This document shows positions 8,452-63,335 of a stretch of DNA of 64,000 nt, one piece after another; the first letter of the stretch is position 1; each line of letters begins with the position of its first letter. Position numbers and translations under genes: made by a program. This DNA is from Zygaena filipendulae. Lineage: Eukaryota > Arthropoda > Insecta > Lepidoptera > Zygaenidae. The notes under the pieces are model-generated. The model made no database searches and had not been told where the DNA came from. It worked only from the letters and a program-made list of their open reading frames with translations. Where the stretch lies: positions 5,292,501-5,356,500 of the forward strand of contig OU015669.1 of NCBI GenBank assembly GCA_907165275.2, in the 5' to 3' direction.

Positions 8452-8478
8452 CTCAGATGAAATAAAAACTCGTCTGAG
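8452..8478. repeat. 27-bp palindromic micro-element
   Basis: Starts CTCAGATGAAATAAAAACT and ends CGTCTGAG, so its ends are inverted repeats (one mismatch). It shares the CTCAGAYGAAATAAAAACT core with 39911-39939, 41728-41764 and 27649-27666. No clear target-site duplication is visible. Confidence 0.6.
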
Positions 8479-9204
8479 CTTAAAGCAGTTGTTTTTTTTA
8501 CAGAATAAAGACACTTTCTATTTCTGAAAATTTCCTTTTTTTACTATTAAATACTAGGTAAGTACTTACTGCTTGACTGAGGTTAAAAGTAACGTTGAAA
8601 TTGAAAAATTGAAATTTCTATCCTATCAAGCGACGGGTGCTCCTCGTATCGTACCTATCCATATCTCGCACCATGAGGTGAAAATTTTAATACACTTTAG
8701 TGATTCTACCGTAGCTCGTAGGTCTCCAAATTCAAGGTTAAAAAATCTAAATAGATTTTCGCGCTATTAAAAATAGGTACTCCTGTCCAAGAAGTAGATA
8801 AGATGCAAGTGATTCCCCTTTTTATTAGATGATTTATATGAAATTTTCAACAGAAACTCTCGGTTATTTTTTAAACTTCTGTCTAGAGTCTAGAGATATT
8901 TTCTTACCGACGATAGAATAAAATGCTAGACGCGACATTTTGTAATTTATTTGAACAGGTAGATAGATGAGATGGTAGATAAGTAGGTAGGTACTTAGAT
9001 TAGGTACGTTTACAAGTGAGTACCTACTCATTATCACGGTCAAGCAAAACGAGTGTAGTCAGTATCAACGACATAAATATTTGAACTAGGTAAAGTTAGT
9101 GGAGAATGAATGAGTGAGTGAGTACTAAGGTGAGTATAGGCATAGGTACACTAGAGCATTTCATCGAGCGTTTCTATGCAATGTAATATAGTAGAATATA
9201 TGTA

Positions 9205-10145: not shown

Positions 10146-10620
10146 TACTAGTCTATATTTATTCTGCAGTAGTCTCATATACGTACACCCTACCTACGTT
10201 AACCTACTTGACGAAAATTTTAAAAAAACAAAATTTTTGAATAGAAAATATTATAATAACTAATATTAGATATCTACAATGATAATAATAATAAAATGTA
10301 TTTGCGACCGACTGTTCTCAATTTGTTTACGTAAGTAGGTACGTAAGTGTTCGGTGCATTGAACTCCACCACATTTAGTGAAATAAAAAGAGTTTTGAAG
10401 CCTAAAAACGGCTACGTGGAGTGGAACACCTGCCATCTGACTCACTGACTGACGACAGTTGGCCAACACGGAGTTTTCTGAGAAATTCAATAGCTTTTGA
10501 AGCGAGAAGCGAACTGCAAAATTTAAGATATTATAACCGACATCGAAAAAGGTTGTATGTATTTAGTATGATTCGTTCGTTTAAATTGGTGTGAATTTTT
10601 TTGATCCTTTTTTTTGTTTT
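10146..10620. other. Non-coding, nothing recognised
   Basis: Short unsupported frames only; the sequence leads into the pentamer array. Confidence 0.4.
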
Positions 10621-10624
10621 GGGA

Positions 10625-11189
10625 TTATTTTATTTTATTTTATTTTATTTTATTTTATTTTATTTTATTTTATTTTATTTTATTTTATTTTATTTTATTT
10701 TATTTTATTTTATTTTATTTTATTTTATTTTATTTTATTTTATTTTATTTTATTTTATTTTATTTTATTTTATTTTATTTTATTTTATTTTATTTTATTT
10801 TATTTTATTTTATTTTATTTTATTTTATTTTATTTTATTTTATTTTATTTTATTTTATTTTATTTTATTTTATTTTATTTTATTTTATTTTATTTTATTT
10901 TATTTTATTTTATTTTATTTTATTTTATTTTATTTTATTTTATTTTATTTTATTTTATTTTATTTTATTTTATTTTATTTTATTTTATTTTATTTTATTT
11001 TATTTTATTTTATTTTATTTTATTTTATTTTATTTTATTTTATTTTATTTTATTTTATTTTATTTTATTTTATTTTATTTTATTTTATTTTATTTTATTT
11101 TATTTTATTTTATTTTATTTTATTTTATTTTATTTTATTTTATTTTATTTTATTTTATTTTATTTTATTTTATTTTATTTTATTTTATT
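10625..11189 (+). repeat. (TTTTA)n microsatellite, about 113 units
   Basis: A 565-bp run of an exact TTTTA pentamer with no interruption visible. The FILFY-type open frames across it in all three forward frames are artefacts of the repeat. The perfect homogeneity suggests recent expansion or an assembly estimate of array length. Confidence 0.97.
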
Positions 11190-14100
11190 CATAAAAGGTG
11201 TGTTAATTAGGTAATGTTAATCCGTAATAGGTAGATATATGTATATTGATGCCAATTTTTTATTCAAATCCGTTAAACACGTATAATTACGGTAATACCT
11301 AATTTTGACGTTTCTACGATAGTACCTATAGGTAGGTATATATTTTTATTATTATTAGGGTTTAAGTAAGTTATACTTTTAGATTATTTTCGTATTTTCT
11401 GTTCATTTTCCACATTTCAAATAAGTATTATAAAATAAAAAAAGGCAACACGGATGTAACATTGAGATAATAAAATAAAAACTGCTTCCTTGAATCTTTA
11501 TCGAGTCATTACGAAAATAATAATCGTTGCACATACCTACCTACTTAAGTGTTTAAAAAAATGAAATTTTCAACACTGAACACGCACGAAATAAATTCAA
11601 CCTTGGCTGCTGCCGCCTCGTTTGTTGTCGCATTTGTAAAATAGAATATTTAATTTGCTTATTGGCTATACATGTGAATACAATGATGGTTTACTTTTCC
11701 GTAGCTAGCTATCCCATGTCATTTCACAACCCAACGCCATCTTCGTTATTCAATCCAATTGCAAACGACTGAATCAATGTGGAGGAAACACGAACCAAAG
11801 AAAATAGATACCTAGTGTTTTTATTCCTGAATAGGTACCAAAAGAATATTGATCATAAACTACCTATACTATTTTCTGGTAGATATCTACATATAGGTGT
11901 ATTTATGTATCCACGAGACATTTTTATGGTGAAATAAACTGTATCTTTAGCCTTTTAGCCTAGTTTTAGTCTTTTAGGATATAATATTTATTGTGATTTG
12001 CAATATTAGATAAGTGCCTACATTTAAAATAATTGTTTATGATTTCATGATTATTATTATTTATTTTAGTTTATCTGGCAGCACCCAAAAATTAATAATA
12101 AGTATATAGATCACATATAATTGAATTGTATGTGACCTATAATTGAATTATAGAACGAAAACTTATTGAAAGATAATAATAATTAAATCTTCGAAGTGAG
12201 TAAAATATAAATTTTCTAATAATTTTTTTTTATTGCTTTAAAAAGAAAATTTATATTTCATTTTGATTATAAACTACTTTTCACTACTGGAGTTGTGCAA
12301 ACGTTGGAATCTTGCTGAGGTTCACAATAGGTTCGACTAAATTCGAGTGAATTACCTATTAAAATTCAGCGATCTAATGATCTTTAATCGATACATTTGT
12401 TACTTAACATTATTTTTGCCTCATGACCATTGAGTAGCGGGAAAATAAAGTCAGTAGAAAAACCCTTAAACAATATTTGAACTTTATTACGATTGGAATA
12501 AGATTGAACGACTGTATAAAGTCATTACATATTTCTGATGCCGAATGTATGCTTCTCAAACCGGTCTTTATTAGAGTCTACAAAACCTCATTTTTATATG
12601 GTTTCCTGTTTTAGACTGTACCTACGCGCTACGGTATGTTTGAGTAGGTACCTACGAATGGAAGAATTAAAACAAAACTGCCTCAAAGGTATGGATTTGA
12701 CAGGGAACTTTCTGTGCAAATAGTTACATTCATTATTTATTTTAATGTTTGTATTTGAATGAGAAGTTCAAAATCGAGTAGGTACTATAATTATATTGAC
12801 ATACTTTAGTGCATAGAAGTGCGGATTTGGTATGATATAGGTATATTGAGCATAACTGTGTTTGCGTAAAATAAGTTGGATTTTATTTCTTCGGCCCATT
12901 AATTCACAAAAAATTCAAAAGTTCCTCTTTGGACATGGATAAAGTAGAAAACAATGCCTTTATTGTTATAAAATCCTGCAAAGTGAGATATCTCAGTCAG
13001 ATAGAAAAAGTTAAACTTTGCGCAATCCCATGAAAATAATTATCTTTAACTAAAAACAATACATAGGTGCAAAGCGCTTACTCGAATTAAAATCTAAAGA
13101 CTGCAGAAGTAGTATAGGTCATTTAAATTTGACCTACATATTTTCTACTTACGTTGCAGGTAGGTACACTACGTACCTATATTTTTTTTAAAGAAAATTA
13201 TGCAAGTGGGCGTAATATTATATGAATAGAAATCTTCAAATAATAGCTTTTAGAATTTTTGTCTATCTGGCTGTGTGTATGTAGGTGCATGAAATGTGTT
13301 GAACGGAGTAATAGCTGCATTTTTGAGAGTAGGTATTTTTTTAGTTTTAACATAAAACAATGAACAATGAAATAAGCTTAAGTCATCGCAATCGGTTCAC
13401 GGTAACAAGAGTTATGACAAACGTAAAGCGTAAACAGTGACATCTGAGTACCTACTTCTAAACTACGCGAGCAAAGCCTAGTGCAACAGCTAAGTAGGTA
13501 CTTTTATTCATACATTACAAAACAGCCGCCGCGCCGGCCGACAAAAGTTGTATACCTATTATTGTCAGACAAGTAAGTACTTTTTTTTGGTACTCAGAAT
13601 ACGGAATAATAAACGCTAAGTTATAAGTTATAACAAAGAATGTATCGACCGCGGAGAATCGCTATTTCATATTGCGTCATTTTATGTTACGGATGAGGTC
13701 AGCGAAGAAAGATATAGTCCAAAGTAGGTGTATAATGTTTAAAAATATGAACGATCATCATACGTGCTGCATGAGCAAGTCTGAGGTACTTCTTTTTCTT
13801 CTTCTTTAATAATGGCGTCTATAATTATAATTTGCCAATGACAATGTTTCTTAATATACATATAAATAAATAATAAAAATCTCTTCATCTAGGTACTTCT
13901 TCAATTATGGCGAAACGCCAATGACAATGTTAGATTGTTCCCCGAGTTAAAACATGGCTCTCTTGAAAGCCAGTTTCCTGCTCAGGGTCCAAAATAGATG
14001 CTGAAAAGTGACTGAAATAACGAAGACAACGTGACACACGTGTCATCAGGGGTACAGAGAAGGACATACACTTTTGGCAGTAAGTATTAGGTCCAAACTA

Positions 14101-14826: not shown

Positions 14827-14828
14827 AG

Positions 14829-16859: not shown

Positions 16860-16862
16860 TTA

Positions 16863-18852: not shown

Positions 18853-18885
18853 CTCAGAAGAATAACTAAAGCATATTCTTCTGAG
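18853..18885. repeat. 33-bp palindromic micro-element
   Basis: Starts CTCAGAAGAAT and ends ATTCTTCTGAG. It is the same length as the insert at 50125-50157 and matches it at about 28 of 33 positions. Flanking octamers TTATAGTA and ATAAAGTA agree at 6 of 8 positions, compatible with a decayed duplication. Confidence 0.6.
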
Positions 18886-21104: not shown

Positions 21105-21575
21105 CTCAGACCAAATAAAAACTAAAGACGGAACGTCTCGAACAACGAAGTGAAGCCGGTTGCGTATGCATGTGTTGATTAGGAAAGTGTATGGATTTGC
21201 AAGGTTTACTTAGATTTTATGGTATCTTTTTCTTGTAAGTGTGTGCGTGTTTCTGTGTACGTGCTCGGCGATGGCGTCTTTTTCCTGGTTTCACTTGTTT
21301 GTTCTATGCGTTCCGTCTTTAGTTTTTATTTGGTCTGAGATTATGATTTATGAGTTTTTAGTTAGCCTTATTGAGTACGTACCTACCTACACCTACAATA
21401 AATCTGATCTCCATTTTACACTTTTACATCACAATATAAACAATGACCCATCAGAGCTCTATATTAAGTTTCGCCGAGAAATGCGCACCGTATTTTATGG
21501 ACATAATCGCATCCAGTTCACGAGGAGCGCGATATAGCGGGAGGGTACAGAAATAGCGCGGGCTAATACCCACGC

Positions 21576-27640: not shown

Positions 27641-27648
27641 GTGGTGCT

Positions 27649-27666
27649 CTCAGACGAAATAAAAAC
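27649..27666. repeat. 18-bp micro-insert with 9-bp direct repeats
   Basis: CTCAGACGAAATAAAAAC sits between two exact copies of TGTGGTGCT (27640-27648 and 27667-27675). The insert equals one arm of the palindromic micro-elements at 8452, 39911 and 41728. Confidence 0.7.
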
Positions 27667-27710
27667 TGTGGTGCTATAACTGGTGCCACGTAGTTAGTTT
27701 TATAATTGTA

Positions 27711-39200: not shown

Positions 39201-41307
39201 TATACTTTCATATGCATGCATTTAGTGAAACTGTGAAAAGCTGTTAATTTAGAATCACAAACAGACACTTCAATTTTATTTATATGTATAGATATGGGGG
39301 GCAGGGGCGCAGTGGGCAATGACCAAAGAGATCATAATATTATGGTAAATGCAAATTAATGACTTAAATCACCATAAACACTAATGTGGTATGAGATTTA
39401 GGGTAGGTATAGCTTGTTTAAACTAAAATGACGCGCCCCTCCATCGAGTATACGCACACGCACAACCGTTAAAATATCGATACGACACATATAAATCTGG
39501 TCTGTCTATTCATCACAAGTGGGCTATACTGGCGCCGCACTCACACTATTAAAGAGATATTATCAATACATGCATGATCTCGCATATCTAAAACTGCTAA
39601 TTGAGTAGGTAGTGGGGCGCGTCATTTTAGTTTAGACAAGCTATAACTAAAATTGACTTTGTACCTATACAAAATAACATAGCGCATAGGTAAGCGTAGA
39701 CCCCAAGACCAAAGAAAGTGGTATAGTAGAAAATCGTACTTATAGTAAGGGACTATTCCCATCAACTAATGCAGTTTATGAAATTACTCTACTGCTCTAC
39801 TCTATTTAAATCGTATCGTGTAATTGATAATTTTTTCATCAAGTTCGTGCTTCGTTAAATTTCCTTTTAGTCAAAGGAATGTCTTGTAAATTTCTTTTTA
39901 TAATTTCAACCTCAGACGAAATAAAAACTATCGTCTGAGTGTGGGCTCATCATATTTTTATCAGCAGGGCAATTATGTAACTTTTGTTGCTATCATATTT
40001 AAGTTTCAATCAGAAAAATAGCGATTTTGTGATTAATTAATCATGTTTAGACAGCTTTAACTTTGACGTAGGTATATGTTTATTTTGGATTATTGCTAGA
40101 TGTTGTAGGTGCCAAAAGGTGCTTATAGTAATCGCAAAACCGCCATGTTTTTTATTGAAACCGAAAAAATATAGAAACATAGTTACATAAATTGTCCCTC
40201 AAATATCTGTTTGTCAAGTAAGATAATGCCCATTATACAGGAAATGTGTCTATATAAACCTACTTACAATTCAAAACTTATCGACAGGTTTCACTACGGA
40301 AAATATCCCGAACGACTATTTGGATGAAAGTGTTTTGAGTTCTGGCCGCTGCGCCATATTCGTCGAGGAGGCCGCGCTGTTGGACCACCACCCGTGGACG
40401 GTCGTTGCCAGGTTCAGCGGACACGCCACCGAGATATCCAGGGTCACCACACACACCATCCAAGTGGACACTGGCCCAACTACAGGAATAAGTACATATA
40501 TGTTTTATATCGCAAACGTACTTTAAAGTTTAAGGGTACAATATGTTACCGAGGATAATAATTATTATTATTAACCGTTAGTTTACAAAGTCGGCGTTTT
40601 GTATACTTAATGTCGAGGACAGAAGATGTCATTATATGTTGTATTTTTGCGAGTTGCGAGCATCAGGATGCTCGCAATTCGTCAGAAGGCGCTAGGTTAG
40701 GTCAAACGGTACCGACTGCCGATATGCGGGGATATAGCAAAGCATTTTCTGCCCTCAGCATTATAGGTACAAAACTAGCTGTTCCTCGCGATTTAATCCT
40801 CGGTAATAACGGAGTTCCCGCGGGATTTCCGGGACAAAATGACAAAATAGATTAGTGTAGATGAAAATACGAAATGTTCTTTTTTGAAAAATAAATACAA
40901 TGACTTTGCAGTTTCTGAACAAACGAGTATGATATCGATGGTTTTTTTTATTACCACTCTAGCTTTTCCCCGTGGTTTCACTCTTAAATAACGTAATTTA
41001 AAGGAATCATAATAACTGCTAAATAAATATTTTGTTTTGTTTAGTTATCATTTGCTTCGTACACAACAAGTCAGAGACGATTGAAATAGATGTTACCTAT
41101 ATTTTGTCTCCAGGGTACAATTTCTTTATGACATCGGTAACGCTGCTGGTGGCGGCGGTGCTGTTGCTGCTATGTGGTGGCTTCATGTTCCCTAAGAAGA
41201 ATCGCGAGTGGACTTACGCCCGCGCGTCCACCCTCAGCAACTCAATACGCAGCAGCATCTTGAGAAAATCTTTAGCGAACAAACCGAAAACGGCTATGGC
41301 CGCTTAA
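30236..41307 (+). CDS. Type I membrane protein with about ten divergent Ig-like modules
   Basis: Fifteen coding exons join into one frame of about 1,179 residues: 30236-30290, 31594-31896, 32683-33069, 33378-33710, 34122-34466, 34797-35144, 35713-35979, 36427-36681, 36862-37051, 37242-37420, 37579-37716, 38222-38377, 38756-38872, 40288-40491 and 41045-41307. All have GT/AG borders, and the phases match at every junction (all phase 1 except phase 2 between exons 9 and 10). The product has a signal peptide, modules each built as Cys-X-hydrophobic-P-X-G followed by a Cys-X-I/V-X-I strand and D/G-X-W, one transmembrane helix and a 38-residue tail. The last two-exon modules resemble, from memory, the N-terminal Ig domain of fasciclin III. 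Adhesion or recognition is an inference; no specific function is known. Possible polyadenylation signals lie at about 42320 and 42357. A shorter relative lies downstream at 47.2-53.0 kb. Confidence 0.8.
30625..30990 (-). mobile_element. Two Helitron-like copies without hairpin, in intron 1
   Basis: First copy 30625-30780 (GGAGTTCCTGCGGG to CATTTTTATACATATAATA). Second copy about 30783-30990, starting CTAGGTATTTTCGGAGTTCCC and ending ATAATATTAGATTAG. The second contains the long hairpin listed separately at 30838-30891. Confidence 0.6.
30838..30891. repeat. Perfect hairpin, 23-bp arms and 8-nt loop
   Basis: Left arm TTCTTTCACTTATACGA and right arm TCGTATAAGTGAAAGAA, each extended by A/T runs, surround the loop AGCTATGG. 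Sister Helitron copies (38430, 46173, 54735) have only a single AAGTGAAAGAATTTT-type stretch here, so the hairpin arose by an inverted duplication within this copy. Confidence 0.75.
31594..36681 (+). CDS. Ig-like gene 1, exons 2-8 (modules 1-7)
   Basis: Seven consecutive exons each encode one module with phase-1 borders (approximate residues 19-119, 120-248, 249-359, 360-474, 475-590, 591-679, 680-764). Diagnostic pieces are CFLTAPNGE and VDDTGVWRLTY (1), CRVTIGPMEEKLLGSW (2), CHVITPNGE and LGYWTVYG (3), CLFRTPEGH and CRISIGP (4), CHIRTSNG and GDWMLI (5), CKLFAPDN and EGTWEIRY (6), and NHTVYDGFGKC with NGVWSM (7). These modules keep only one central Cys pair. For exon 4 the acceptor must be at 33377 (TTTCCAG|GC), because using the upstream TTCCAG at 33364 places a stop at once. 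Confidence 0.75.
35517..35612. mobile_element. 96-bp palindromic MITE in an intron
   Basis: Arms of about 40 bp (GATGGACAATCAACTCGG and complement of CCGTGTTGATTTCCCATC; CCCGGTGCTT and AAGCACCGGG) surround the loop ACATCATTTA. An exact AGTTACGAGT flanks it at 35507-35516 and 35613-35622. Confidence 0.75.
36862..40491 (+). CDS. Ig-like gene 1, exons 9-14 (modules 8-10)
   Basis: Three modules are each split over two exons. Module 8 (36862-37051, 37242-37420) and module 9 (37579-37716, 38222-38377) gain an extra Cys pair: LSCSVSSEHQVRACKF with LGLWRCAIE, and LSCYVQSAIRYCYF with VGAGFDAGECGG and SGVWSCHVG. Module 10 (38756-38872, 40288-40491) returns to a single pair (DYCRFVR and SGRCAIFVE) with PWTVVARF in place of the G-X-W motif. 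The four-Cys layout is closer to a canonical V/C2-like Ig fold. Confidence 0.72.
37749..37890 (+). repeat. Partial MITE of the CCCTTATTC family
   Basis: Keeps the interior TATTCTGTACGTCATAAGACACGTTGTAAATGTA and the right half with GGTTATGGTCATTCATACC, but lacks the left terminus. It lies in intron 11 of Ig-like gene 1. Confidence 0.5.
38430..38640 (-). mobile_element. Helitron copy with a C-tract at its 3' hairpin
   Basis: The usual CTGTCCCCCGCGGTTTCACC terminus is replaced by ACTGT followed by a pure C run (about 38433-38446) and GTTTCACC. The rest (GTCACTCAGGACTACCG, AGATCCAGAGATTGCC, ACAATTCACAAACTTTACC) matches the copy at 46173-46411. Confidence 0.65.
38995..39293 (-). mobile_element. 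Helitron-like, GCCTAAGTTACTC subfamily
   Basis: Starts CTATAGCTGTGCCCCGCG (terminus mutated), contains GTAGCCTAAGTTACTC and GCATTTAGTGAAACTGTG, and ends TTTATATGTATAGATA. It lies in intron 13 of Ig-like gene 1. Confidence 0.6.
39410..39643. mobile_element. 234-bp MITE, TA target duplication
   Basis: Left end TAGCTTGTTTAAACTAAAAT GACGCGCCCC and the complement of the right end agree at 29 of 30 positions. TA flanks both sides (39408-39409, 39644-39645). No open frame is present. It lies in intron 13. Confidence 0.8.
39911..39939. repeat. 29-bp palindromic micro-element
   Basis: Starts CTCAGACGAAATAAAAACT and ends TCGTCTGAG. Flanking octamers do not match. It lies in intron 13 of Ig-like gene 1. 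Confidence 0.6.
40775..40850 (-). repeat. Truncated Helitron 3' end
   Basis: CTAGCTGTTCCTCGCGATTT followed by GGAGTTCCCGCGGG. Only the terminal 75 bp remain. It lies in intron 14, where a second short remnant occurs near 40960. Confidence 0.55.
41045..41307 (+). CDS. Ig-like gene 1, exon 15 (transmembrane and tail)
   Basis: Encodes a hydrophobic segment, MTSVTLLVAAVLLLLCGG, flanked by PKKNR on the inner side, then a Ser/Arg-rich tail ending KPKTAMAA and TAA. Two acceptors are in frame: GTTTAG at 41044 and TCTCCAG at 41113. The second would remove 23 juxtamembrane residues, giving about 1,156 residues. I cannot tell which is used. Confidence 0.7.
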
Positions 41308-41727
41308 TTTCTTATACAGGCTGTAAACAAACTATATATCTGCTTTCACGTGACTTATTTTGACGCGTGCATAGATTACGTCAAACCTTACAAAAAAGTT
41401 AACTGCCTAAATACAGATCCATAATACTTAGGTTTCTTTTAATAATTATAACAGTTCTTGTGACGTAAATCATTCGAACCGATTAGGCAAGTTAGTACTT
41501 GCAATTGATTTTTTTTTTTGTTTTTAGTATGTACATACATACTAGCACGGGAATGCACATCGTACTTAATTGTTATTGTTAAGTTTGACTATACAGTATA
41601 CATATAATATAAATTCCCATATCGTCGGGGATAGTGGAAATCCGCGTAACTAGCATTGGATAAACCCGCGTATGTGACAAATCCTTTAGGTCGAAAATGC
41701 AATGTAGCCAATTTATAATACCGCGAC

Positions 41728-41764
41728 CTCAGACGAAATAAAAAGTCTTTTTATTTCGTCTGAC
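41728..41764. repeat. 37-bp palindromic micro-element with 8-bp direct repeats
   Basis: Arms TCAGACGAAATAAAAAG and CTTTTTATTTCGTCTGA are exact inverted repeats. ACCGCGAC flanks both sides (41720-41727, 41765-41772). It probably sits in the 3' UTR of Ig-like gene 1. Confidence 0.75.
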
Positions 41765-42638
41765 ACCGCGACCATAGACCGCGACCGTACCGTACCGACT
41801 TAATAATAACATTAAAATATTAGATAGATTGTTAAAAACACACAGAACAGATAAATTATTATTACAAGATCTGTAAAAATAAAAAAAATACAAAGTTTTA
41901 ACATTCTCCTGTAAGTTGTAACCTTATCCGTAGTGCAGATACGCGCTCCCTACCTGTACCAGTAGATTCGTGGTTTTGCACTATCCCCGAAGATATTATA
42001 CCTATTGCATTATTATAGTCTCTGATATTACGCACCCTGACAGCTTGATTGGTTCAACGAGAAACTGTCACGAAATAATCACAATGCGATTTTTTCTGTG
42101 ACTCGCATAGGTATAGGTTTATATAAATTAAGGAGGTGGGATCATATGATTTCTTTTACAAACATTAGGAAAACAATATCGATAACATCAGAAGACTAAA
42201 ACAAAGTAATGTGTAATAATTTGTTAATATAGTGTTTAATGTTAACCTATTTCAAAAAGTTGAGTACCCTATCTAATAGGTATGTATTACAATTACTGTG
42301 ATCATAAGGTGCCTATTAAAAATAAATACAATTGTGTATTGTGAAGAAAGTTAATGAATAAAGTATTATATCTACTTACATATAAAAAAATGGATTTATT
42401 TTATTTTAATTGGAAGCTTATATTAAAAAAATATAATAAAAAACCGAAAGTATCAACTTAGGGAACATACCAACCCATACTACGGGATCCATTTTTTTTT
42501 TTTTGACCCCCTGCCCCCACCCCTCACCCCTAGTTGTCATAAATGTATTTTTTCTTGCAAACAGAAAGTTATAAAATATATCTGGCTCATATGACTCGAG
42601 ACTCAAATTTTGTCTTTAGAGTAGTTTCGGGAATTATG

Positions 42639-42823
42639 GCCGATTAACAGCCGCACTCAGAGTCGACTTTAATGATTAGGTTAGTTAAGTATAGATTTTT
42701 AAAACAAAACTGCCGCAGTTTTGTTTTAAAAACCATTGATATAAGTAGTAAATCAATGTTAAAAAGCTGTACTTAACAAAGTAATCATTAAAGTCGACTC
42801 TGAGTGCGGCGGTAAGTCGGTCA
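42639..42823. mobile_element. 185-bp MITE with long inverted ends
   Basis: GCCGCACTCAGAGTCGACTT plus TAATGATTA at 42650-42678 is an exact inverted match to 42782-42810, and weaker pairing extends about 11 bp outward. The centre has another palindrome (AAAACAAAACTGC and GCAGTTTTGTTTT). Confidence 0.75.
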
Positions 42824-47235: not shown

Positions 47236-50200
47236 ATGTACTCGTGTTTGTTCGTTATATTATCAATACATGCAATAATATCGAGTTGTGTGACAGTGAA
47301 TCGATATAGTGCTGTGACGGAGAGAATATTTAGTAAGTGCCCAAGTACCTACCCTTCTTTTTCGATTAAAAGAAATCATGCTCGATTGATCGCGTAAATC
47401 GAATCTGAAGTAACTTGTAATATCTAACGCAATGAGATTACCTACAATTTGTTTATGTTTAAATTCAGAATTTCCGTTGTTACCTACTTTATAAGCGGAA
47501 TATGTTTTGGGATTCGCTGTAAATACTTAAAACATAAATGGACACTAGGTATTTGTAAAATAGAAACAGATCCGGAACGGAACTTCCGAAACTTCATTAA
47601 ATTTCTTTTAAGGTTTATGGTTTTGATTAAACTTTAGCTAAATTACTTACCTACTTTTGATTTTAAGATTTTTAAATCACCCTTATAATACATTATCATA
47701 ATATAATCATATTATTGCTTTAATCATATTTAGTATTGCTTTAAAATATCGGGCGACTAAGCTTCGCCTGGCACATTTCAAGTTGTCGTGGGAATTAATA
47801 ACTTCCCGCGGGAAAAGTTGCTTTTATGGGGTGTGAAAGTGTAGGTAGTGTCATTAAATGCTCAAATCATTACATGATATTGCGTTAAAAATAGTGTGAA
47901 CACAGATTTATGCCGCGTATTTAAACGATAACTTTCCCGACATCCGATTTTGATAAAATTATGTTATTCTTGAGCTATCAATCTAGGTACCCGTTTGATC
48001 TGTATGAAAATACGTTCAGTAGTCAGAGATTACCACAACCACAGATAATAGACATTTTTAGGTAGGTATCTACCTACTCGTCTTTTACCGTCCTCTCTAA
48101 ATTTTAGGTAAGTAATCAATGTACCTACCTACAAACACCACAATTCTATTGTTTTTATATTTATATATTATTTTCTTTAAATACTCTAGATTTAAAATAT
48201 TATCTGAAGTTTTGTTGTCCTAAACAGATAAATGGAGGCGTGAATAAAAGAATGAAAGTTAGGTAAAATCTACAAATCAGTCTAACACATGCAATATTAT
48301 CGTTTTGATATTAGTATCAATGTCATTAACTTTCTGTCATAATTATTATATTGCTTCGATTAGAGCAAACGTTTCAACACAGTACATTCACATAGCAAAC
48401 AAAATACGACCGCAACCATAGAAAGGGCAAGTAAGTCACTTTGAGTAAGTTGACTATAGATATGAATATAAAATACATAGTCAAACTTACACATTTGACC
48501 TTCATGTGACAACATATAATTTTTTCGAATTTAGCAGTGGAAGTCACTAGCACCGCGGCATCGCCCTTGCTCAGTGATCTTTACTTTCCTACATATTGTT
48601 ATAAATATAAACAAAACTATAAATACCTACCTATATACCTACATACCTAATAACTGTTTTGTGGTTATCCACACCAACATATGGTTTTTTGTAAGAGTAT
48701 TCACCTTATTATTAGTAAGGTAGTCATGGACCTTTACCAATGATAAAAAGTAGTCTATGACACTCAGGAACACTGTGGCATTCTATTGGTAGGTAAAAGA
48801 ATTTTCAGAATCGGTTCAGTAGATCCAGAGATTACCCCCTACAAGGTCACAAACTCCCGAGCTCACAATTCACAAACTAACAAACTTTAGCTTATAATAT
48901 CTATGTATTAAGTAGGTACAGAAAAATAATATTTCTTTCAAATTGCAACTAATTTACCTACTTACTTACTAGCAATATGAAAATTATCCAAGTAACATTT
49001 TTTTTTATCTGACTTTGGTCTGGTTTTACATTGTTATCAGATAAAAAATATCTTGCAAATGTACACAAAAGGAAGTTTTTATTTGCTCTAAATAGTACAT
49101 GTATCTCAATTTATGTGATAAAATCCTGCTAAAGCTTATTGTAGGTACCTAGGTGATATTTTTTTAAGATAGTTTCGAGTTAAGAGTTCGGTGAAAATAT
49201 TCCAAAAAAAAGGAAACTACATACCTAATCCTACTAATATTATAAATGTGAAATTGTGGATGTTTGAATGTTTGGATGTTTGTTACTCAACACGCAAAAA
49301 CGGCTGAACGGATTTGGATGAAATTTGGCATGCATGTAGCCTTTGACATGGAAAAGAAAACATAGGCTACCTTTTATCCCGGAATTCCCGCGGGATCTCC
49401 GGGATTAACGCGGGTGAAACCGCGGGGCACAGCTAGCATAATATAAGTAGGTACTAGGTATGTTTGTACATGATGGTTAATTATTATATTAATACAGAAT
49501 TCGCTAGTAAAATTAGGTTTTCATTAACTAAGGAAAATCAAATATTAACCATAAATGAGGAAAATACGATATTATAGCCATAACTTCAAAAATGATAAAT
49601 CTATACTAACCTACATATTATATACTTTTGGTTCCGGCTAATCTCTGAAAGGGCTGAAACGATTTTAAAGGAACTTTGACTGGCAGATAGCTGGTGTTAT
49701 AACGAGTAACTTAGGTTATTTTAATTTTAGAAAAAATAGTTCCTGCGGGAATTCCGAAATTCACGCGGGTGAGACCGCGGGGCACAGCTAAAAAATTGGT
49801 AAGTAGGTATGGCATTTATATCTTTGTTTGCTTGTTTGCTGGTACCTACATCAGGAGAACGATCGCCCTATTTTATAATGATAGATATTACCAAAACAAA
49901 ACCAAACGTCACACGTTTAAACGTCAAATTTTAAATTAATATTTTATGCATATTTCGTATCGCGCTGATTATTTGAAAGATAATTAATTAATTATATATT
50001 ATTTTCTAAATAAGAGTTGAACCGTCATCTTTAAAAATAATCAGCGCGATACGAAATATGCTTAAAATATTAATTTAAAATTTGACGTTTAAACGTGTGA
50101 CGTTTGGTTTTGTTTTGGTAATATCTCAGAACAATGACAGTAGCATATTCTTCTGAGGGTAATATCTATCATTATAAAATAGCGCGATCGGCCTCCAGTT

Positions 50201-53047
50201 TACACGATAATCGTGAGTCGGGTCGCTCGCTTCCACTCGCTTCCCTGTTGTGGTTGAAGGGGGCGGGGCTAACAAGCACGTCGTACTCGTGAACGGGTGC
50301 TGGCAGCTGGTAACTGATCGTATCTTGTCTGCTATGGTAATCCTATTACTAATTATTATCTATTAATTACCTATTGGTCGGCTGAAGGACTGGCTTCCTT
50401 TGCTATCTAATAATTTAGAAATAATAATCGGAATAAATTCGGAATCTGGTTCATTAGATATAATTATGTATATGTAGATAATAAAGCCAAGACTAGTATA
50501 GTATCTATTATATTATCTGTGGCCAAGCCAACGATGAGAAATTATCTCTTTCTATACAACTGTGCGTGTGGTGGACTAAGTTCGACTTAAATATTTATAT
50601 CTAATTACTTTATACTAGTTACATAAGAGGTCCTATTCCAAAAGAGAAATAGAGGTAACAGATACCTACGAGTTACGATTTTTTAATTACGATCAGTATT
50701 CGGGCCAGGGTTATTGCCTTTAAGCCCAGAAGTTGGGCTGGTATGCCGATCACGAGATAAAAATTGGTCGATAAAGTGATGCCGCGGGCAAGAGCTAGCA
50801 CCTATTTAGTATTAATAAGAGCAGAAACTGACTGACTGATTGATCAACGCACAGCTGAAACCGCTGGCTAGACTCATGAAATTTTGTACATAATTATATA
50901 TTCCATAAGTGAAGTAAGAAATTTTTTTTTTTAATTTAACCCCTAAGGGGGTGAATATAGGAGTTGCAAACTTTGTATGGAACGATTCCGCGGGAACTTC
51001 GAAATTATCGCGGGTAAAACCGCGCAGGACAGCTAGTATTTTAATAAAAATTATGCACTTGCATCACTTCGAGCTGCATGTTACAACTCCAGTGATATCT
51101 AGCGAACTAGCCGACGCTATAATTGATTCTCGTTAAAACAAATGTAGATTTCTTGAGGTATATTATTACAGACGATGACATAGTTTATCAACAGTAATTT
51201 GAATATTTCTGTTCAATAGGCAAATCAAAAGTAGAATTAGGACCTATTCTAATAAATTGCGGATTGGGCGACATCGTCACCATATCGGCGCCAATAGTGC
51301 ACACCAAGCAGAAAATATATCATCTGACCAACCCGCGAGGCGACACCGTTAATCTGCCAATAAACTACACGCAAGTTGTCGTTAAAAAGAAGAAAAGAAA
51401 AGATGAAGACTACAATAACATCATAATCAAGTATGTGAAGAACGACCCACCGATAATAACACCGGAAAAACCTTACAGAGTGTTCAACGTTAACTATCCA
51501 AAGAACAGACTTTATTCAGGTGAAACCAACGTTTTTAAAGAGACCGAGGACGATATGGCCGTGAATGACTTCATGATTGGTCCACTGGGGGAGGAAGACC
51601 ACGGCAATTGGGGGCTGAATGTCTATTTCAAAGACATCGACGAACAATGGATAGAACTGTTTCAAGTTATAACCATTATTATATCGGGTGAGTGATATTT
51701 TAGAAACTAAGCTACCCACAACCTGTAACAGGCGTCTTAGGCAGCTGCCAAGGTATCCGCAGATCCGTAGCCAGGCGCGGATCCAGCACCTAAAAAAGTT
51801 GTGGGCACGTCCCGCACGGCCATCCGAAAATTAGTTTTGTTTGTATAATTATCACATCTTAACTACTAAACCGTAATGACACTTTTGCAGCTTGAAAGTA
51901 TATATCGCGTTCCAAATTACGCACGGTTCAAACAAAAGTGTACCTAATCTAACTGGCACGCCATTATGGTAGCGCTTGCAGAATACACTAATCGTAAGTT
52001 AGGAAAAAAAATGGAGACTTTACTACGCAAAGCAGCGACACTCTGGTCCCCCACCAACTTCGTGATTCACCATGCTCCGCCACAACGTACAAAATGTTTT
52101 TTGGGAGACAAAATTTTTAAATTATTTTCGGGCATTTATGACAGCTACTACACGGAGTACATATATCTAATATCCACATCCTCCAAGTCTCAATAAATCA
52201 AACCAGGAATACCTACTCTTGGTTTTATAATCCTTACCATGGACCAATTAAAGTTTAATTGGTCCATGATCCTAACTAATATTAGGTGAGTACTATAAAT
52301 ACGAATGTGAGTTTGTTTTTTACACATTTATACTAACCGGTAAAAATTAAACTTCTTGAATTTGACAGACCTAGGGTACCTTTCACCCAGAAAAAATATT
52401 GTTCCTGAGGGATAGAAAGTTGATAAATCTACATTAACGCGAGTTGACCCAAAAATAAGGTATTGGGGTGTTTTGTTTTAATTCCGAATAGCTCTGCATA
52501 TCAGGTACAGTCGTGTGATAAAGTTTTTACATATCAAACAATAAATTACTTAGTTTTGTTTACAGTCTGCGATTATTCATTATAATATTTAGTGCGTTTA
52601 ATCATAAATCGTCGTATTAAACCTAGCTGTCTACTGATAAAAACTAATGCCGTGTTAAGGTTGAACCTATTTCCATACCCATTACGTATTCTTAAAAAAT
52701 AAATCTAGTTGACTTTTAACATTTCGAAACTATTTTGTTTTCCGTTTTCAGAATTCGTACCAATTCATCCTAGAATGCCTAAAGTTAATATCGGAGACAC
52801 ATTGGAGCTCGGGTTCGCTTATCCTGTGAGGGATCTGCAATCTTGCGAGCTGATAGCACCGATGTCGACCTTCGACAGATTCTACGATAGAAGCCGCATC
52901 GACCTCGACAAGAAACTGAATAACTGCGAGTTCATCATCAGAAACATCACCATGCGGGATCAGGGAGTGTGGTCCATAGTAGGCGTGGGAAATATCGTTT
53001 ATAGAGCTGAAACGGTTTTGAGAGTGAACAGTTATAAAAAATCTTGA
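47236..53047 (+). CDS. Secreted two-module Ig-like protein, relative of gene 1
   Basis: Three exons join into 286 residues: 47236-47332, 51220-51687 and 52752-53047. All junctions are phase 1, the same convention as gene 1. Exon 1 gives a signal peptide starting MYSCLFVILSIHAIISSC. Exon 2 (residues about 33-188) encodes a module with LTNPRGD and FMIGPLGEEDHGNWGLNV; it has lost the usual central Cys pair and carries a Lys-rich insert VVVKKKKRKDED. Exon 3 (189-286) encodes CELIAPM and CEFIIRN with DQGVWSIV and ends YKKS and TGA. No transmembrane exon was found before the retrotransposon at 55 kb, so the product is probably secreted. A possible initiator TCAGT lies at 47180-47184. An AATAAA occurs at 53479. 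Function is unknown; the paralogy to gene 1 is inferred from module pattern, phase and adjacency. Confidence 0.7.
47745..48170 (-). repeat. Highly diverged Helitron-like element in intron
   Basis: Starts GGGCGACTAAGCTTCGCC in place of the usual terminus, contains AACTTCCCGCGGGAA, and ends CTAAATTTTAGGTAAGTAATCAATG, which resembles 18145-18699. Confidence 0.4.
48690..48905 (-). repeat. Headless Helitron-like copy in intron
   Basis: Retains GATAAAAAGTAGTCTATGACACTCAGGAACAC, AGATCCAGAGATTACC and CACAATTCACAAACT. Terminus not present. It matches 54735-54930. Confidence 0.5.
49229..49436 (+). mobile_element. Short Helitron, best-preserved copy
   Basis: 208 bp from TCCTACTAATATTATAAATG to GCGGGTGAAACCGCGGGGCA CAGCTAG. 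The CGCGG/CCGCG stem with a GTGAAA loop lies just before the terminal CTAG, as expected for Helitrons. The following base is C rather than T. Confidence 0.8.
49600..49790 (+). mobile_element. Helitron-like, AACTTAGGTTA subfamily
   Basis: Starts TCTATACTAACC after an A, contains GAGTAACTTAGGTTATTTT, and ends GAGACCGCGGGGCACAGCTA with the last G mutated. Confidence 0.65.
49860..50190. mobile_element. 331-bp fold-back MITE with about 125-bp arms
   Basis: CTATTTTATAATGATAGATATTACC on the left is the complement of the right end, and pairing continues through ACGTCACACGTTTAAACGTC and GCATATTTCGTATCGCGCTG to a spacer at about 49983-50029. The right arm is interrupted by a 33-bp micro-element at 50125-50157 that the left arm lacks. 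The element lies in intron 1 of Ig-like gene 2. Confidence 0.8.
50125..50157. repeat. 33-bp micro-element inserted in a MITE arm
   Basis: Starts CTCAGAACAATG and ends TATTCTTCTGAG. GGTAATAT flanks it on both sides (50117-50124, 50158-50165). The uninterrupted left arm at about 49882-49898 shows the empty site with one GGTAATAT equivalent. Confidence 0.8.
50818..51036 (+). mobile_element. Short Helitron, CCCCTAAGGGG subfamily
   Basis: Contains GATCAACGCACAGCTGAAACCG and ACCCCTAAGGGGGTG and ends CGCGCAGGACAGCTAG before a T. Sister of 2244-2454; the left boundary is approximate. Confidence 0.65.
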
Positions 53048-54930: not shown

Positions 54931-55030
54931 GAGAAGTAAGATAAGCTGCAAATATTTACAGGGTTGAAAGTATACACCGTTATAAACATGTTTATAAAAT
55001 TAAAAAAAATCTTTTTCAAACAAAATAAAT

Positions 55031-57133
55031 AAATTCTTAAGCACTGTTGGCATCGGGAAACAAAAACAGGATACTTGTGCGCTAAATGTGGATGTCGAAG
55101 CATTAAATCGTCACTTTTGCAATAGTTGTGATTTCGACGCTGCCACCAAAGCGAGTACCATCTCTCACTATTCAAACTCTCCACCTTGTTCACATGATTC
55201 TTTTTCTTTCTCTCCTGTATCGGAATATGATGTTAAGAGGAATATTGAATCTATTTGTTCTAATGCTGTTGGTAGCGACGACATTGGTAGGACTATGATC
55301 ATCCTGCTTCTTGACATCCTGCTCCCTGTTATCACTCATATTGTTAATCTTTCTCTAGCTTCTTCCTGTTTTCCTGATGCCTGGAAGCAGGCCACCGTGA
55401 TCCCTATACCTAAGATCAAGGATCCATCTTCATTTTCACACTATCGACCGATCTCTATTCTTCCCTTCCTGTCCAAAGTTCTTGAGCGCCTTGTTCACTA
55501 TCAACTCTCTACGTTTCTTTCTCAGAATAACCTTATGAATGAGTTCCAGTCCGGATTCCGCCCTGGGTATAGTACTGCTACTGCCCTTATAAAAGTTACT
55601 GATGACATTCGCCTGGGGATGGAAGAGCAGAAGGTAACTGTACTTACTCTTCTTGACTTCAGCAACGCATTCAACACAGTTGACGTTGACGTCCTGCTAT
55701 CCTTAATGGGAGCCCTCAATGTATCCTCTCCCGCCTTACTTTGGTTCCGTAGCTACCTGGATGGGCGCCAGCAGCGGGTCAAAATTGACGATAAATGTTC
55801 CAACCTGTGTAGTACTACTGCTGGCGTCCCTCAAGGCGGAGTCCTCTCTCCCCTGTTGTTCTCCATCTTCATCAATCCCATTACTTCCACTCTCTCCTCC
55901 AAATTTCATCTTTATGCGGATGATCTTCAGCTGTATATGCAGGAGACGATCAACAACATCGCGCACGCTGTAGATGCAATGAATGAGGATCTGCATAAGA
56001 TTGCATCGTGGTCGGCGGCTCATGGTCTTACAGTGAATCCAAAAAAGTCCCAAGCAATCATCATAGGTAGCCCCCGCCAAATTGCAGCTATTGATCGTTC
56101 TTCTATTCTTCCTATTACTTTTCAGGGTGTTCCTATACCTTATTGCGAGTTCGTTAAAAATCTTGGCGTATATTTTGATCGCACCTTCTCGTGGTCCCGC
56201 CAAATCGGTGAAGTAAGCAGGAAACTGTTTGCCTCATTGAGCTATTTAAGGCGGCTACGCAACTTTCTTCCCATCTCTACCAAAATTACCATTGCCCAAT
56301 CCTTACTTTTGCCCATCCTTGATTATGCCGACGTCTGTTACACCAACATCACTGTCGAACAGCTGGACAAACTCGAACGGTTGCAGAATGTGTGTATCCG
56401 CTTCATATATGGATTGCGTAAGTTTGACCATGTTTCTGAATACAGGGTTAGGCTTGGCTGGCTCCCGATCCGATTGAGGCGCAATGTGCATATCCTGCAT
56501 ACAGTATATAAGGTACTACATGATCCCATGGCCCCTACCTACCTTAAAGAACAATTTAAGTTCTGCTCCGACTGTAGTGGCCGTGCTCCTCGTTCCTCTA
56601 CTTTTAAACTGATTGCTGTCCCTTTCCATAAATCACGGTTTTTCGAAAAATCCTTCACTGTCGAAAGTATACGCCTGTGGAACTCCCTCCCCGACTCGCT
56701 CAGACAGAAAGAGTCATTGGGCTCTTTTAAAGCTGCACTTCAAAGGCACTATTTAACTCAATTATGATTAATGTATGTAGTGTAAAATATCATTTTATTT
56801 TTATTTTTATATGTGTTATTTTTATATTATATCACCTATTGCTACGTGTATGTATGTATGGCATATGTATGTATGTGTATAAAGTTGTATTATATTTAGG
56901 ATATCTAAGTATTAGCGTTGTATTATCCTTATATAGTATATAGCTAGGTATTACGTTGTGCACCCAGCACCCGCTTCTAGTTTGTATTTGCAGCTCTCTA
57001 TCACCTTAAGGTTGCCTTGAAAAGATTGCCTCTAGCAATAAGGCCGCCTTTTGCTCTGTATTTACTTTTTATGTGTCTTAGTTTTTATTTTCTCTTCTGG
57101 GGCAATAAAGCATATTTGATTTGATTTGATTTG
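55031..57133 (+). mobile_element. 5'-truncated CR1/L2-like non-LTR retrotransposon
   Basis: The body begins within the linker between endonuclease and reverse transcriptase and ends with a short (TTTGA)n run at about 57115-57133 after GGGGCAATAAAG. AAAATAAAT occurs at 55022-55030 and again at 57134-57142 and could be the target-site duplication, although it is low complexity. The endonuclease domain and 5' UTR are missing, as expected for aborted reverse transcription. Confidence 0.8.
55088..56767 (+). CDS. Reverse transcriptase, ORF2 fragment of the retrotransposon
   Basis: About 559 residues, open to the stop TGA; the frame is also open upstream to the element's 5' break near 55031, so no genuine start codon is expected and the first codon here is GTG. 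Reverse-transcriptase landmarks appear in order: IPIPKIKDPSSFSHYRPIS, NEFQSGFRPGYST, LLDFSNAFNTVD, TAGVPQGGVLSPLLF, the catalytic YADD at residues 276-279, LGVYFD, and a C-terminal region with LGWLPIRLRR and LWNSLPDSLR. These fit the CR1/L2/Rex1 side of the non-LTR elements. No frameshift or stop is seen, so the insertion may be recent. The protein would lack endonuclease and could not mobilise the element by itself. Confidence 0.88.
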   Translation: MDVEALNRHFCNSCDFDAATKASTISHYSNSPPCSHDSFSFSPVSEYDVKRNIESICSNAVGSDDIGRTMIILLLDILLPVITHIVNLSLASSCFPDAWKQATVIPIPKIKDPSSFSHYRPISILPFLSKVLERLVHYQLSTFLSQNNLMNEFQSGFRPGYSTATALIKVTDDIRLGMEEQKVTVLTLLDFSNAFNTVDVDVLLSLMGALNVSSPALLWFRSYLDGRQQRVKIDDKCSNLCSTTAGVPQGGVLSPLLFSIFINPITSTLSSKFHLYADDLQLYMQETINNIAHAVDAMNEDLHKIASWSAAHGLTVNPKKSQAIIIGSPRQIAAIDRSSILPITFQGVPIPYCEFVKNLGVYFDRTFSWSRQIGEVSRKLFASLSYLRRLRNFLPISTKITIAQSLLLPILDYADVCYTNITVEQLDKLERLQNVCIRFIYGLRKFDHVSEYRVRLGWLPIRLRRNVHILHTVYKVLHDPMAPTYLKEQFKFCSDCSGRAPRSSTFKLIAVPFHKSRFFEKSFTVESIRLWNSLPDSLRQKESLGSFKAALQRHYLTQL

Positions 57134-57361: not shown

Positions 57362-57367
57362 TTTATT
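57362..57367 (-). terminator. Possible LEO1 polyadenylation signal
   Basis: TTTATT on the plus strand (AATAAA on the minus strand), about 290 bp past the LEO1 stop codon. Other weak candidates cannot be excluded. Confidence 0.35.
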
Positions 57368-60600: not shown

Positions 60601-63335
60601 AGGAAGGTTTAGGTATATAATTTGTCAAGGTTTTGTGGGAATTGGTTTTCAATCCTTACCAACATTATAAACGCGAAAATAAGTTTGTTTGTTTGTTACG
60701 CTTTCACGCCTTAACTGCTCAATGGATCATCATAAAATTTTGCGCACACGTTGTCAGGGATACAGAAAAGAACATAGAGTACTTATCCCGGAATTCCCGC
60801 GGAATCTTCGAAATTACCGCGGGTGAAACCGCGAGACACAGCTAATTTAATTATAGCTCATTGACTGACTTTATAAGATTTAATGGTGATCGTACACGAG
60901 CCCACTCCCGCTTTGAATGCCCCAAGCTTGTAACGCACCTGGCGCGCCCTTCCTCGTCCAAGGTCTCCTCCTCGTCGATCTCATCTTCGTAGGTGCTGGG
61001 GTCATAAGGGCGCGTCTCCACCGACAGGAAGTTGGGCAGCTTCACGAAGTGCAGCTCCTTGCCCAGCTCCGTCCATATCTTGGGCATGTCCACGTCGATT
61101 CGAGTCTCCGGAATCTCCACTTCTTCCTCCTCGTCGGGTTTGGTGCGCCCCTCCTGGAATGTACGGACGGACGGCGATTTTCTAAACAGTTTTTCGGCTT
61201 TTCGGAACAAAATCCGACGAGCATTCGGTGACAAGCTGCGTACTGTACGAATTATGTAATACACGCTATTTTATTTACGCTAACTGATGAGTTAGCTCAC
61301 AGTCTGAGACTGCGAGTTTTGATTGAACCCGACCTCAGGGCCCTTATTCACTATGACCAATAAAAATCCTTGCACATGGGTTTAAAAAACGCAATCTCAA
61401 ACACTCTGGATGCCCTAACATTAAATTGGATGAAATGGATGAAATTACTATTCTGTATGCCATAAATCATGTTGTAAATGTATTTGAAATGAAACTTCTT
61501 TGAGTAAGAGGGAAATAATTTTAGTGGAGCAATATCTTAAGGTTGAATACGGGCCTGTTCAAATGGTATGTAGATTCGACAAGCTGTAGCTGCACTGTGC
61601 AACGATAGACATTATTGACGCGTCATGCTACACATATACAGGTTTTTATGAAGGCAATAAAATATATACCTGTAATGATTGTAGGTTTTGGTTGAATAAA
61701 TAAATAAATTATTTGATGTGTCGATATAATTCCTTTACTATACGCAAAAAGCTCCAAGAAAGATATCATTGTATAGCATTACATTTTTTAATGTCAAATC
61801 TAGCTGACTATATGCGAAAGTACATAATATTAAATAAAAAGACTTATTGTCTATAGATGGGATTGCGTAATACTCTCATAAAATTGACCACCTTCTAGAA
61901 ACAGACGAAGTGCATGACTACACGGCCGACGCAGGGCTCCGAAAGATCCGCTCCTGCAAGCCTATGACCCAAATAAAACTATTGACAGCACTGCTCTTTG
62001 TGATAGCGAATATTAGAGATTATATTAAGAAGCGACACCTCACTCCCACCAATCTCATTCCTCCTCATACCCCGCGAAAATGACCTTGGTGAAGACTGAA
62101 GAAAGTTTGTCACATTGTAGAACTGACAGTTACTGTCAGTTCTCTGTCAACCTTACGCACAACACGTGTACGTGCAAGCCGGCCGTCTTTACTTGTGAGT
62201 AAGTATTTGAATCAGTTCATTTGTATGAAGTGTCACCGGGCATGGTAACGTGGCAGTACCTCGTCCCCGCTCGGACGCGCGTCGTCATCGCGCCGCTCGT
62301 CGTCGCTGCGACTGCGACTGCGGCTGCGGCTGCGACTGCGGCTGCGGGAGCGCGACCGCGACCGCGAGCGCGCCGCTCGCTTCTCGTTCTCTTCGTCGGT
62401 ACTGATGTCCGACGCGTCGCCGAAAAGTGCGTCCGCGGTCACTGAATATTGTACAATACAATGACAATTACAATGACGGATTGATGTTTATTTTCTTTAA
62501 CATGTTAGATGCCGCAAACGCTAAGGGCGGCGCCACAATCTCGGCGACGGCGCGCGGTGGCGGCGGCGGCAGCGGCAAAAACAAATGGTACACAACATAC
62601 CAAGTCGGCCACAACTATCTGCGGTGCGAGCTGTGGGCTACTTCGTATGTTGTCTACCATTTCTTTTGCCACCGCCGTCGCCGCCGAGACTGTGGCCAAC
62701 ACCCACCTAACACCTTGCCAAATAAGGTAGGCATGGTCAGAAGGGGTAGTAGTCTCAGATTCAAACGCTGTCAAAAGTTTTAATTCAAGATTTCAAGCAT
62801 TTATGTCGCAAAAATATTATATACCTACTTCGAACGCGTCCCTAGGACTTGATTCGCGTTCAATCCCAGCTGTTTCCGCCTCGAATATCCCAGTCAGGGG
62901 ACAAATCAGATATTTTATTCCTATACTGTAGTTAAGTTTCCCATTTGTCACCAGTTGGAGGCATCTCTTTGACTGGAGATGGTTATCATTGTTACAGAGA
63001 AATAACGATTAGAACTGCCTGCCAGCGAACCTTTTATAGATTAGGGGCCAGCTCAGACGAAGCTGAGGGGGCCAGACGATAATTGCTATTTACGTTGGTA
63101 AGATATAAACATAGAGTGCAAAAACTTTAAATAAAGGAAAGTTGTGATATTTCATTTTAAGAAAACCTGAACTAACCCGTGTCATTTTTCTCCTTGTCTT
63201 CATCATCGGAGTCGACCAGCTGTTTCGATTTCTTTGGCTTGCTGGAGGTATCCGAGCCGCTGTCGGCGCGACGCTTGGGGCGCGCGTCCACGTCGCTATC
63301 GGAATCCGAGAGCACGGCGCGTTTCTTTTTGTGTC
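57657..63335 (-). CDS. Leo1: LEO1, RNA polymerase II Paf1-complex subunit (5' partial)
   Basis: Leo1 is a subunit of the Paf1 complex, which travels with RNA polymerase II and supports elongation and histone modification. Seven exons (minus order): 63335-63177, 62441-62260, 61153-60939, 60450-60288, 59493-59278, 58780-58582, 57853-57657. They join with matching phases into 442 residues plus stop. Recognisable parts are an acidic SDSDSD N-terminal region, [14 protein letters not shown], an Arg-Ser repeat, [11 protein letters not shown], then the conserved Leo1 core: [84 protein letters not shown], and C-terminal [10 protein letters not shown] and IYSSESD. The first exon seen begins in phase 1, so at least one upstream exon lies past the right edge. 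The Drosophila orthologue is Atu. Confidence 0.95.
58009..58209 (+). mobile_element. Short Helitron in LEO1 intron
   Basis: TCCCTACTAATTTTATAAATG after an A to GCGGGTGAAACCGCGGGG AACAGCTAG before a T. Complete, with an intact stem-loop. It is opposite to the host gene in orientation. Confidence 0.78.
59050..59167 (+). repeat. 5'-truncated Helitron in LEO1 intron
   Basis: Keeps ACATTGTCAGGGCTACAG, GGGTACTTTTTATCTCGG and an intact GCGGGTGAAACCGCGGGG stem-loop, followed by GCTAG and a (TAG)n run. Confidence 0.6.
59694..59827 (-). mobile_element. Helitron-like copy in LEO1 intron
   Basis: CTAGCTGTGCCCTGCGG to ACTCATTTTTATACATAATA, directly abutting the next copy at 59828. Confidence 0.6.
59828..60134 (-). 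mobile_element. Helitron-like, GCCTAAGTTAC subfamily, in LEO1 intron
   Basis: CTAGCTGTTCCTCGCAG, AGTAGCCTAAGTTAC, GTATGCATTTAATGAAAAGC, ending TATTTGTGTAGATA. Third member of the subfamily after 24541 and 38995. Confidence 0.65.
60653..60845 (+). mobile_element. Short Helitron in LEO1 intron
   Basis: TCCTTACCAACATTATAAACG after an A to GCGGGTGAAACCGCGAGACA CAGCTAA (last base mutated). A dispersed repeat shared with 2151-2235 precedes it. Confidence 0.7.
61338..61555 (+). mobile_element. MITE of the CCCTTATTC family in LEO1 intron
   Basis: Left end GGGCCCTTATTCACTATGACC and right end GGTTGAATACGGGCC are approximate inverted repeats. The interior shares ATTCTGTATGCCATAAATCA and GTTGTAAATGTATTTGA with sister copies. 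Confidence 0.6.
62300..62372 (-). repeat. Arg-Ser hexamer repeat inside LEO1 exon
   Basis: A tandem CGCAGC/CGCAGT hexamer encodes about eleven consecutive Arg-Ser dipeptides after EENEKRAA. Such runs expand and contract by slippage. RS dipeptide tracts are typical of splicing and transcription factors; I do not recall one of this length in other Leo1 proteins. Confidence 0.8.
62529..62697. mobile_element. GC-rich fold-back element in LEO1 intron
   Basis: Left arm GCCACAATCTCGGCGACGG, GGTGGCGGCGG, AAATGGTACACAACATACC, and right arm with the complementary AACATACGAAG, AAATGGTAGACAACATA, GTCTCGGCGGCGACGG. The centre (ACTATCTGCGGTGCGAGCTG) is short. A solo arm lies at 22878-22967. Open frames on both strands here are artefacts. 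Confidence 0.7.
63052..63067. repeat. 16-bp palindromic micro-insert with 8-bp direct repeats
   Basis: CTCAGACGAAGCTGAG lies between two exact copies of GGGGCCAG (63044-63051 and 63068-63075). It shares CTCAGACGAA with the longer micro-elements. It sits in a LEO1 intron. Confidence 0.7.

Follow-up and report, generated by a model that had tools for sequence, protein, structure and literature searches.

Short palindromic inserts in the genome of Zygaena filipendulae as probable excision footprints of P-superfamily transposons

The P transposase of Drosophila makes one strand cut at the element end and the second 17 bp within it, leaving 17-nt tails, and the element makes 8-bp target duplications (PMC7776569; the comparisons with published systems given here rest on excerpts of the cited papers). 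Footprints of this element are already known in the fly, where an excision junction has the 8-bp duplication on either side and between them no more than 17 nt from each of the two ends, in some cases with filler where the ends meet (PMC2895639). Here we have analysed a 64,000-bp stretch of the lepidopteran Zygaena filipendulae, hereafter the window (C20:5292501-5356500 in an assembly of 365.9 Mb and 56 contigs; GenBank contig OU015669.1), in which an initial annotation had noticed at least seven inserts of 16-37 bp, mostly palindromic and starting with CTCAGA. We consider such short palindromes, which are found throughout this genome, to be excision footprints (scars) of P-superfamily DNA transposons rather than miniature mobile elements, with a probability of about 92%, since they combine an 8-bp duplication with a limit on arm length, full elements with like ends, empty sites, a THAP relic in these elements and a related intact P-type element.

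The scars share with the Drosophila junctions the 8-bp duplication, the union of one truncated end with the other truncated end in reverse, and joins that are blunt or involve filler or microhomology (PMC2895639). The Drosophila transposase is a THAP protein, like that of the intact element described below, and the Drosophila end CATGATGAAATAACATA has GA(C/T)GAAATAA in common with the ends found here (PMC7776569). The arms differ, being limited to 17 nt in Drosophila and, as we infer, to about 20 nt here, and the Drosophila junctions were induced in the laboratory, whereas those described here form a natural, genome-wide population (PMC2895639). In Anopheles gambiae, several P subfamilies, non-autonomous derivatives and 8-bp duplications likewise occur together in one genome; however, the smallest P units there are 205 bp long and mobile, and the main text of that report never uses the word 'footprint' (PMC1562414). 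The zebrafish Pdre2/THAP9 system also has a THAP transposase and an 8-bp duplication, but its terminal repeats are 13 bp long and start with CATACCTG, and no scar population is mentioned in the excerpts of that paper (PMC10983969). Natural excision scars with filler are also known from genome comparisons in rice; these belong to other superfamilies and show flanking deletions plus fillers, whereas the duplications are mostly kept here, and they were recognised from two compared genomes, while a single genome was sufficient here (PMC4423477). Literature searches among open papers, covered in part, returned neither a natural genome-wide population of P footprints nor a 20-nt stagger.

The core 18-mer CTCAGACGAAATAAAAAC, allowing at most one mismatch, matches the genome at 3,270 places (1,621 and 1,649 on the two strands), against none for the reversed control. 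Palindromes of the form CTCAGACGAA-N(0-30)-TTCGTCTGAG, in which 10 or more bases of each end are exact, number 764 (none in the control), and another 63 places have a longer spacer of 31-61 nt. The target duplication was read in 58 flanked palindromes, a set that left out flanks shorter than 12 bp and arms inexact over 10 nt and hence holds no scar of the window. It is exact over 8 bp in 49 of them and within one mismatch in 55 (six with one mismatch). The proposal in the initial annotation that a cut-and-paste transposase had acted at independent sites and duplicated 8 bp of target each time is thus borne out, and the copies without flanking duplications that would have spoken against it are the minority. 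As for the other objection raised there, that the copies might always lie at the same place inside a larger repeat, it was seen to apply to one 51-bp scar, a form common to L078 and L030 (C1:6874678 and C2:8906603); these two loci share flanks, so this scar seems to have been copied within a larger repeat, while the other scars compared share no flanks over their length. Several 51-bp places and at least seven 73-bp places may be further copies of one scar (one 73-bp sequence was inspected).

A scan for palindromic inserts of any kind, 16-60 bp long, between direct repeats of any length from 5 to 11 bp gave 22 cases in 304 kb, made up of the window and the long loci, many of which had been picked since they contain a match. 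The repeat is exactly 8 bp long in 16 of the 22, namely nine with CTCAGACG ends, four with CTCAGAA, two of other types (CATGGACC and CATTGATA) and one unrelated. The two other types, at L016:2573-2597 and L026:6668-6689, are again palindromic inserts with exact 8-bp duplications and are perhaps scars of further P-like lineages.

Such regular duplications also bear on the idea that pieces of transposon ends were pasted as filler into unrelated breaks during repair. Rearranged end pieces are indeed seen in many of the 19 longer forms (spacer 31-61) whose sequences were inspected by eye; however, capture of this kind would not give exact 8-bp duplications as regularly as they were read (49 of 58 cases), nor would the inserts start at the transposon terminus on both sides, and we regard its probability as practically nil. 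As a second step of excision repair, filler capture may explain the interior of the longest forms.

In the window itself, all seven sequences were found where the initial annotation had placed them (Table 1). They are real and far above chance as a group. A second end family (CTCAGAAGAATA / CTCAGAACAAT) accounts for those at 18853 and 50125 and is also present at L014:3244, L021:1033 and L023:8945. With at most three mismatches the core has seven matches in the window, compared with a mean of 0.12 in shuffled sequence; two of them (21105 on the plus and 21322 on the minus strand) are the ends of a 235-bp element absent from the original list. With at most one mismatch there are six matches, against 0.57 expected from the genome-wide density, a comparison qualified by the fact that the window was itself picked for core richness. 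The flanking repeats, described at first as 8-9 bp long, are present as exact copies at four of the seven scars, and every one is 8 bp long; at 27649 the supposed ninth base is a T that doubles as base 19 of the transposon end. The duplication matches at 18853, 8452 and 39911 were tallied by eye. A search for exact 8-bp repeats around a 10-48-bp insert with a CTCAGA-like end found four cases, compared with 0-3 per Markov-shuffled sequence (20 shuffles, nine hits in all), and the repeats are therefore only moderately significant within the window alone.

Table 1. Scars and related features, numbered from the first base of the window
Feature	Position	Strand	Composition
Scar, 27 bp	8452..8478	+	left arm of about 20 nt (one mismatch) and right arm of 7-9 nt, arms assigned by eye on full-element ends; duplication not recognisable (4/8)
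Scar, second end family, 33 bp	18853..18885	+	decayed duplication TTATAGTA / ATAAAGTA (6/8)
235-bp element	21105..21339	not assigned	perfect 31-bp inverted repeats CTCAGACCAAATAAAAACTAAAGACGGAACG, which closely resemble the ends of the 13 longer elements; duplication not clear (4/8)
One-arm scar	27641..27675	+	GTGGTGCT + 19 nt of transposon end + GTGGTGCT
Scar, 29 bp	39911..39939	+	19 nt + 1 + 9 nt; duplication not recognisable (1/8)
Scar, 37 bp	41720..41772	+	left arm of 20 nt and right arm of 17 nt, its final base altered, between two copies of ACCGCGAC
Empty site of the 50125 scar	49854..49934	-	other arm of the inverted duplication; ungapped match, GGTAATAT once
Scar, second end family, 33 bp	50117..50165	+	exact duplication GGTAATAT
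Shortest scar, 16 bp	63044..63075	+	GGGGCCAG + 10 nt + 1 + 5 nt + GGGGCCAG

Two empty sites were found, each with the target present once. The counterpart of the 50125 scar matches the flanks of that scar joined at one GGTAATAT, with 96% identity over 81 bp, and the scar at L029:3925 has an empty copy at L016:7712-7808 that is 100% identical over 97 bp. The first pair lies in an inverted duplication (49854-50206) whose centre is a palindromic stretch of 164 bp (49923-50086) with GTTTAAAC on its flanks, and the scar is in one arm only.

The search for a larger transposon with the same ends, advised in the initial annotation, gave 13 elements of 726-1,942 bp, all 13 of them, read at both ends, with exact 8-bp duplications. 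Their terminal inverted repeats agree for about 54 bp, in L013 and most of the others to about 94%. Nine of the 13 carry a short frame, MPN(C/F)VV(K/R)GCK.Q...KNK, which starts about 190 bp from one end. The DNA of this frame resembles exon 1 of P-type transposase genes that Z. filipendulae itself carries (MPGCVVKLCKNNTTKNKK), being 76% alike over 62 bp (E value 2.8e-6, 16 short regions searched), so that, judged by sequence likeness, it appears to be a relic of THAP exon 1 and points to the P superfamily rather than to hAT. A Pfam scan of the 69-aa relic, which is too short for this purpose, gave no hit.

P-type genes are plentiful in this genome, with Pfam Tnp_P_element matched at 27 places, compared with none in any of 14 control genomes. 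One of these genes has copies at C5, C7, C10 and C21, with open frames of 902-903 aa, and exon 2 of the C5 copy carries the remainder of a THAP domain (37.2 bits, cut-off 23.9). The intact THAP/P-type element has 45-bp terminal inverted repeats starting with CTTAGATAAATGATTGG and exact 8-bp duplications at C5, C7 and C10, the three copies for which both ends were read. Its ends (CTTAGATAAA) are related to those of the scars, the first ten bases matching CTCAGACGAA at seven positions, and six short palindromes of 23-49 bp are made of these CTTAGATAAA ends. The 27 transposase places differ in score and several have long open frames; they were perhaps recently active. Viral contigs gave no match to CTCAGACSAAATAAAAAC.

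Target duplications of 8 bp are not unique to P, and the scars could in principle be footprints of another superfamily that makes them, such as hAT, Merlin or another. The initial annotation had taken the duplication as a hint of a hAT-like or other cut-and-paste transposase; cut-and-paste transposition holds, but the THAP relic argues for P rather than hAT, a preference reached without a hAT or Merlin scan. The intact P-type element with related ends also speaks against another superfamily. The footprints of hAT elements are small changes in the flanks and are not known to retain about 20 nt of transposon end. We therefore regard a source outside the P superfamily as extremely unlikely.

To describe the arms and junctions, 68 scars were chosen for an exact 8-bp duplication, and this set is no evidence for the duplication itself. 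Among its 136 arms, 28 are 19 nt long, 17 are 20 nt, four are 21 nt and none is longer. Since both ends of the full elements remain alike past 31 nt, this wall at 20 nt must be a property of the scars. A 17-nt stagger as in Drosophila does not fit, since many arms exceed 17 nt, and the limit agrees with about 20 nt. The two arms are joined bluntly in 18 scars, through 1-4 nt of microhomology in 22, with 1-3 nt of filler in six and with at least 4 nt of filler in 15, and the remaining seven have one arm only; 56 of the 68 inserts are distinct in sequence.

This diversity has to be weighed against the view that units of 16-50 bp are mobile themselves, as ultra-short miniature inverted-repeat transposable elements (MITEs) whose ends a transposase recognised and inserted. 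Such units would be expected to lie at independent sites with exact 8-bp duplications, and identical inserts do recur: a 35-bp form is found four times among the 68, and the 33 bp of the 18853 scar are repeated identically at L014:3244, with different flanks and an exact 8-bp duplication. Recurrent forms are, however, also expected if repair favours certain junctions, while the 56 distinct inserts, the one-arm forms and the restriction of the arms to about 20 nt of a repeat of about 54 bp do not suit a mobile unit. Movement of Drosophila P requires no less than 138 and 216 bp of its ends, and the Anopheles P-MITEs suggest that about 100 bp of each end are needed (PMC1562414); units of 16-50 bp should therefore not move by themselves. 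A MITE would be present as numerous copies of a single unit, each with both terminal repeats complete, which is not the case among the 68 scars, whose ends are truncated. The 'extreme MITE' of 16-37 bp put forward in the initial annotation is thus not supported, the inserts being hybrids of two truncated ends with mostly different junctions, and we consider self-mobile units of this size very unlikely.

Excision footprints of P-superfamily elements would arise as follows. A P-type element would insert and duplicate 8 bp of its target, and a THAP-domain transposase would later excise it, cutting one strand at the element end and the other about 20 nt inside. About 20 nt of transposon end would be left on each flank as a single-stranded tail, and end joining would trim and unite the tails, with no microhomology, with 1-4 nt of it or with filler. 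Between the two copies of the duplication there would remain a piece of the left end followed by a reversed piece of the right end, or one end only. Between CTCAGACGAAATAAAAASTCMAGACGGAG ends, an autonomous copy would be expected to encode a P transposase. What we infer from these structures is the stagger, both in its polarity and in its exact length, the route of end joining and the action of a P-type transposase on this very end family.

The ratio of scars to surviving elements was estimated on chromosome C1, among the matches listed. The exact 18-mer has 35 matches there, 12 of them ends of seven full elements and 23 of them arms of 22 scars; the duplication is exact over 8 bp in 15 of these 22 and within one mismatch in 21 (best of about 60 offsets). 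Adding 38 C1 palindromes from the set with spacers of 0-30 nt, 11 of them shared, brings the total to 49 scars against seven elements. This ratio is rough, because the seven are the elements with an exact 18-nt end, those with worn ends being uncounted, and because one scar (L078) is a copy within a larger repeat.

Several observations do not favour the footprint origin. Three of the 58 flanked palindromes lack the duplication, with three, six and seven mismatches, as do two of the seven window scars (8452 and 39911) and the 235-bp element. Immediately left of both of these scars (8444-8451 and 39903-39910) stands ATTTCNNC, which resembles a piece of the opposite transposon arm and for which we offer no explanation. 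One arm of the C1 census matches the transposon end to 22 nt. Microhomologies of at least 5 nt are absent from the 68 scars, whereas those of 5-10 nt are frequent in Drosophila spn-A junctions, where at least 5 nt is seen in 29% (PMC2895639). A templated origin of the filler was not significant in the 15 cases taken as a set (p from 0.034 to 1.0 when the longest match of the filler to ends or flanks was compared with that of its shuffled versions); of the 'product of templated repair' suggested in the initial annotation, the part on repair is supported. The clustering expected from local hopping was not significant in five of six tests on C1-C3 (the sixth gave p 0.037). Finally, the loci read include no autonomous copy bearing CTCAGACG ends, and CTCAGACGAA is absent from the 1.25 kb upstream of the Pfam match at 16 P-type loci.

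In addition to the scars, the window contains a 149-bp sequence (42656-42804) that was considered as a relative and rejected. Its CTCAGAG sits within a longer repeat, GCCGCACTCAGAG, and it was not counted because similar copies at L002 and L012 carry identical bases before CTCAGAG; its inverted repeats, around CTCAGAGTCGACTTTAATGATTA, extend further out. Two long arrays of 10-bp tandem repeats lie at 10453-11214 and 44394-44833, the first of which reads as a five-residue repeat in three frames, and an open frame of 587 aa at 55004-56767, labelled by eye, looks like the reverse transcriptase of a non-LTR (long terminal repeat) retrotransposon.

Taken together, tiny palindromic insertions with target duplications could be mis-annotated as a new class of mobile element and are best read as fossil cut sites. 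We lean towards the view that this P lineage cuts with a 20-nt rather than a 17-nt stagger and that its scars outnumber the surviving elements several-fold (49 to 7 on C1, among the matches listed), in which case the reference would record thousands of breaks repaired naturally in the germline and so reveal the cleavage geometry of the transposase. With so large a population of scars, a genome assembly can show how a transposase staggers its cuts, which targets it chooses and how the germline tends to join ends, and the excess of scars suggests that counts of surviving copies underestimate P-element activity.

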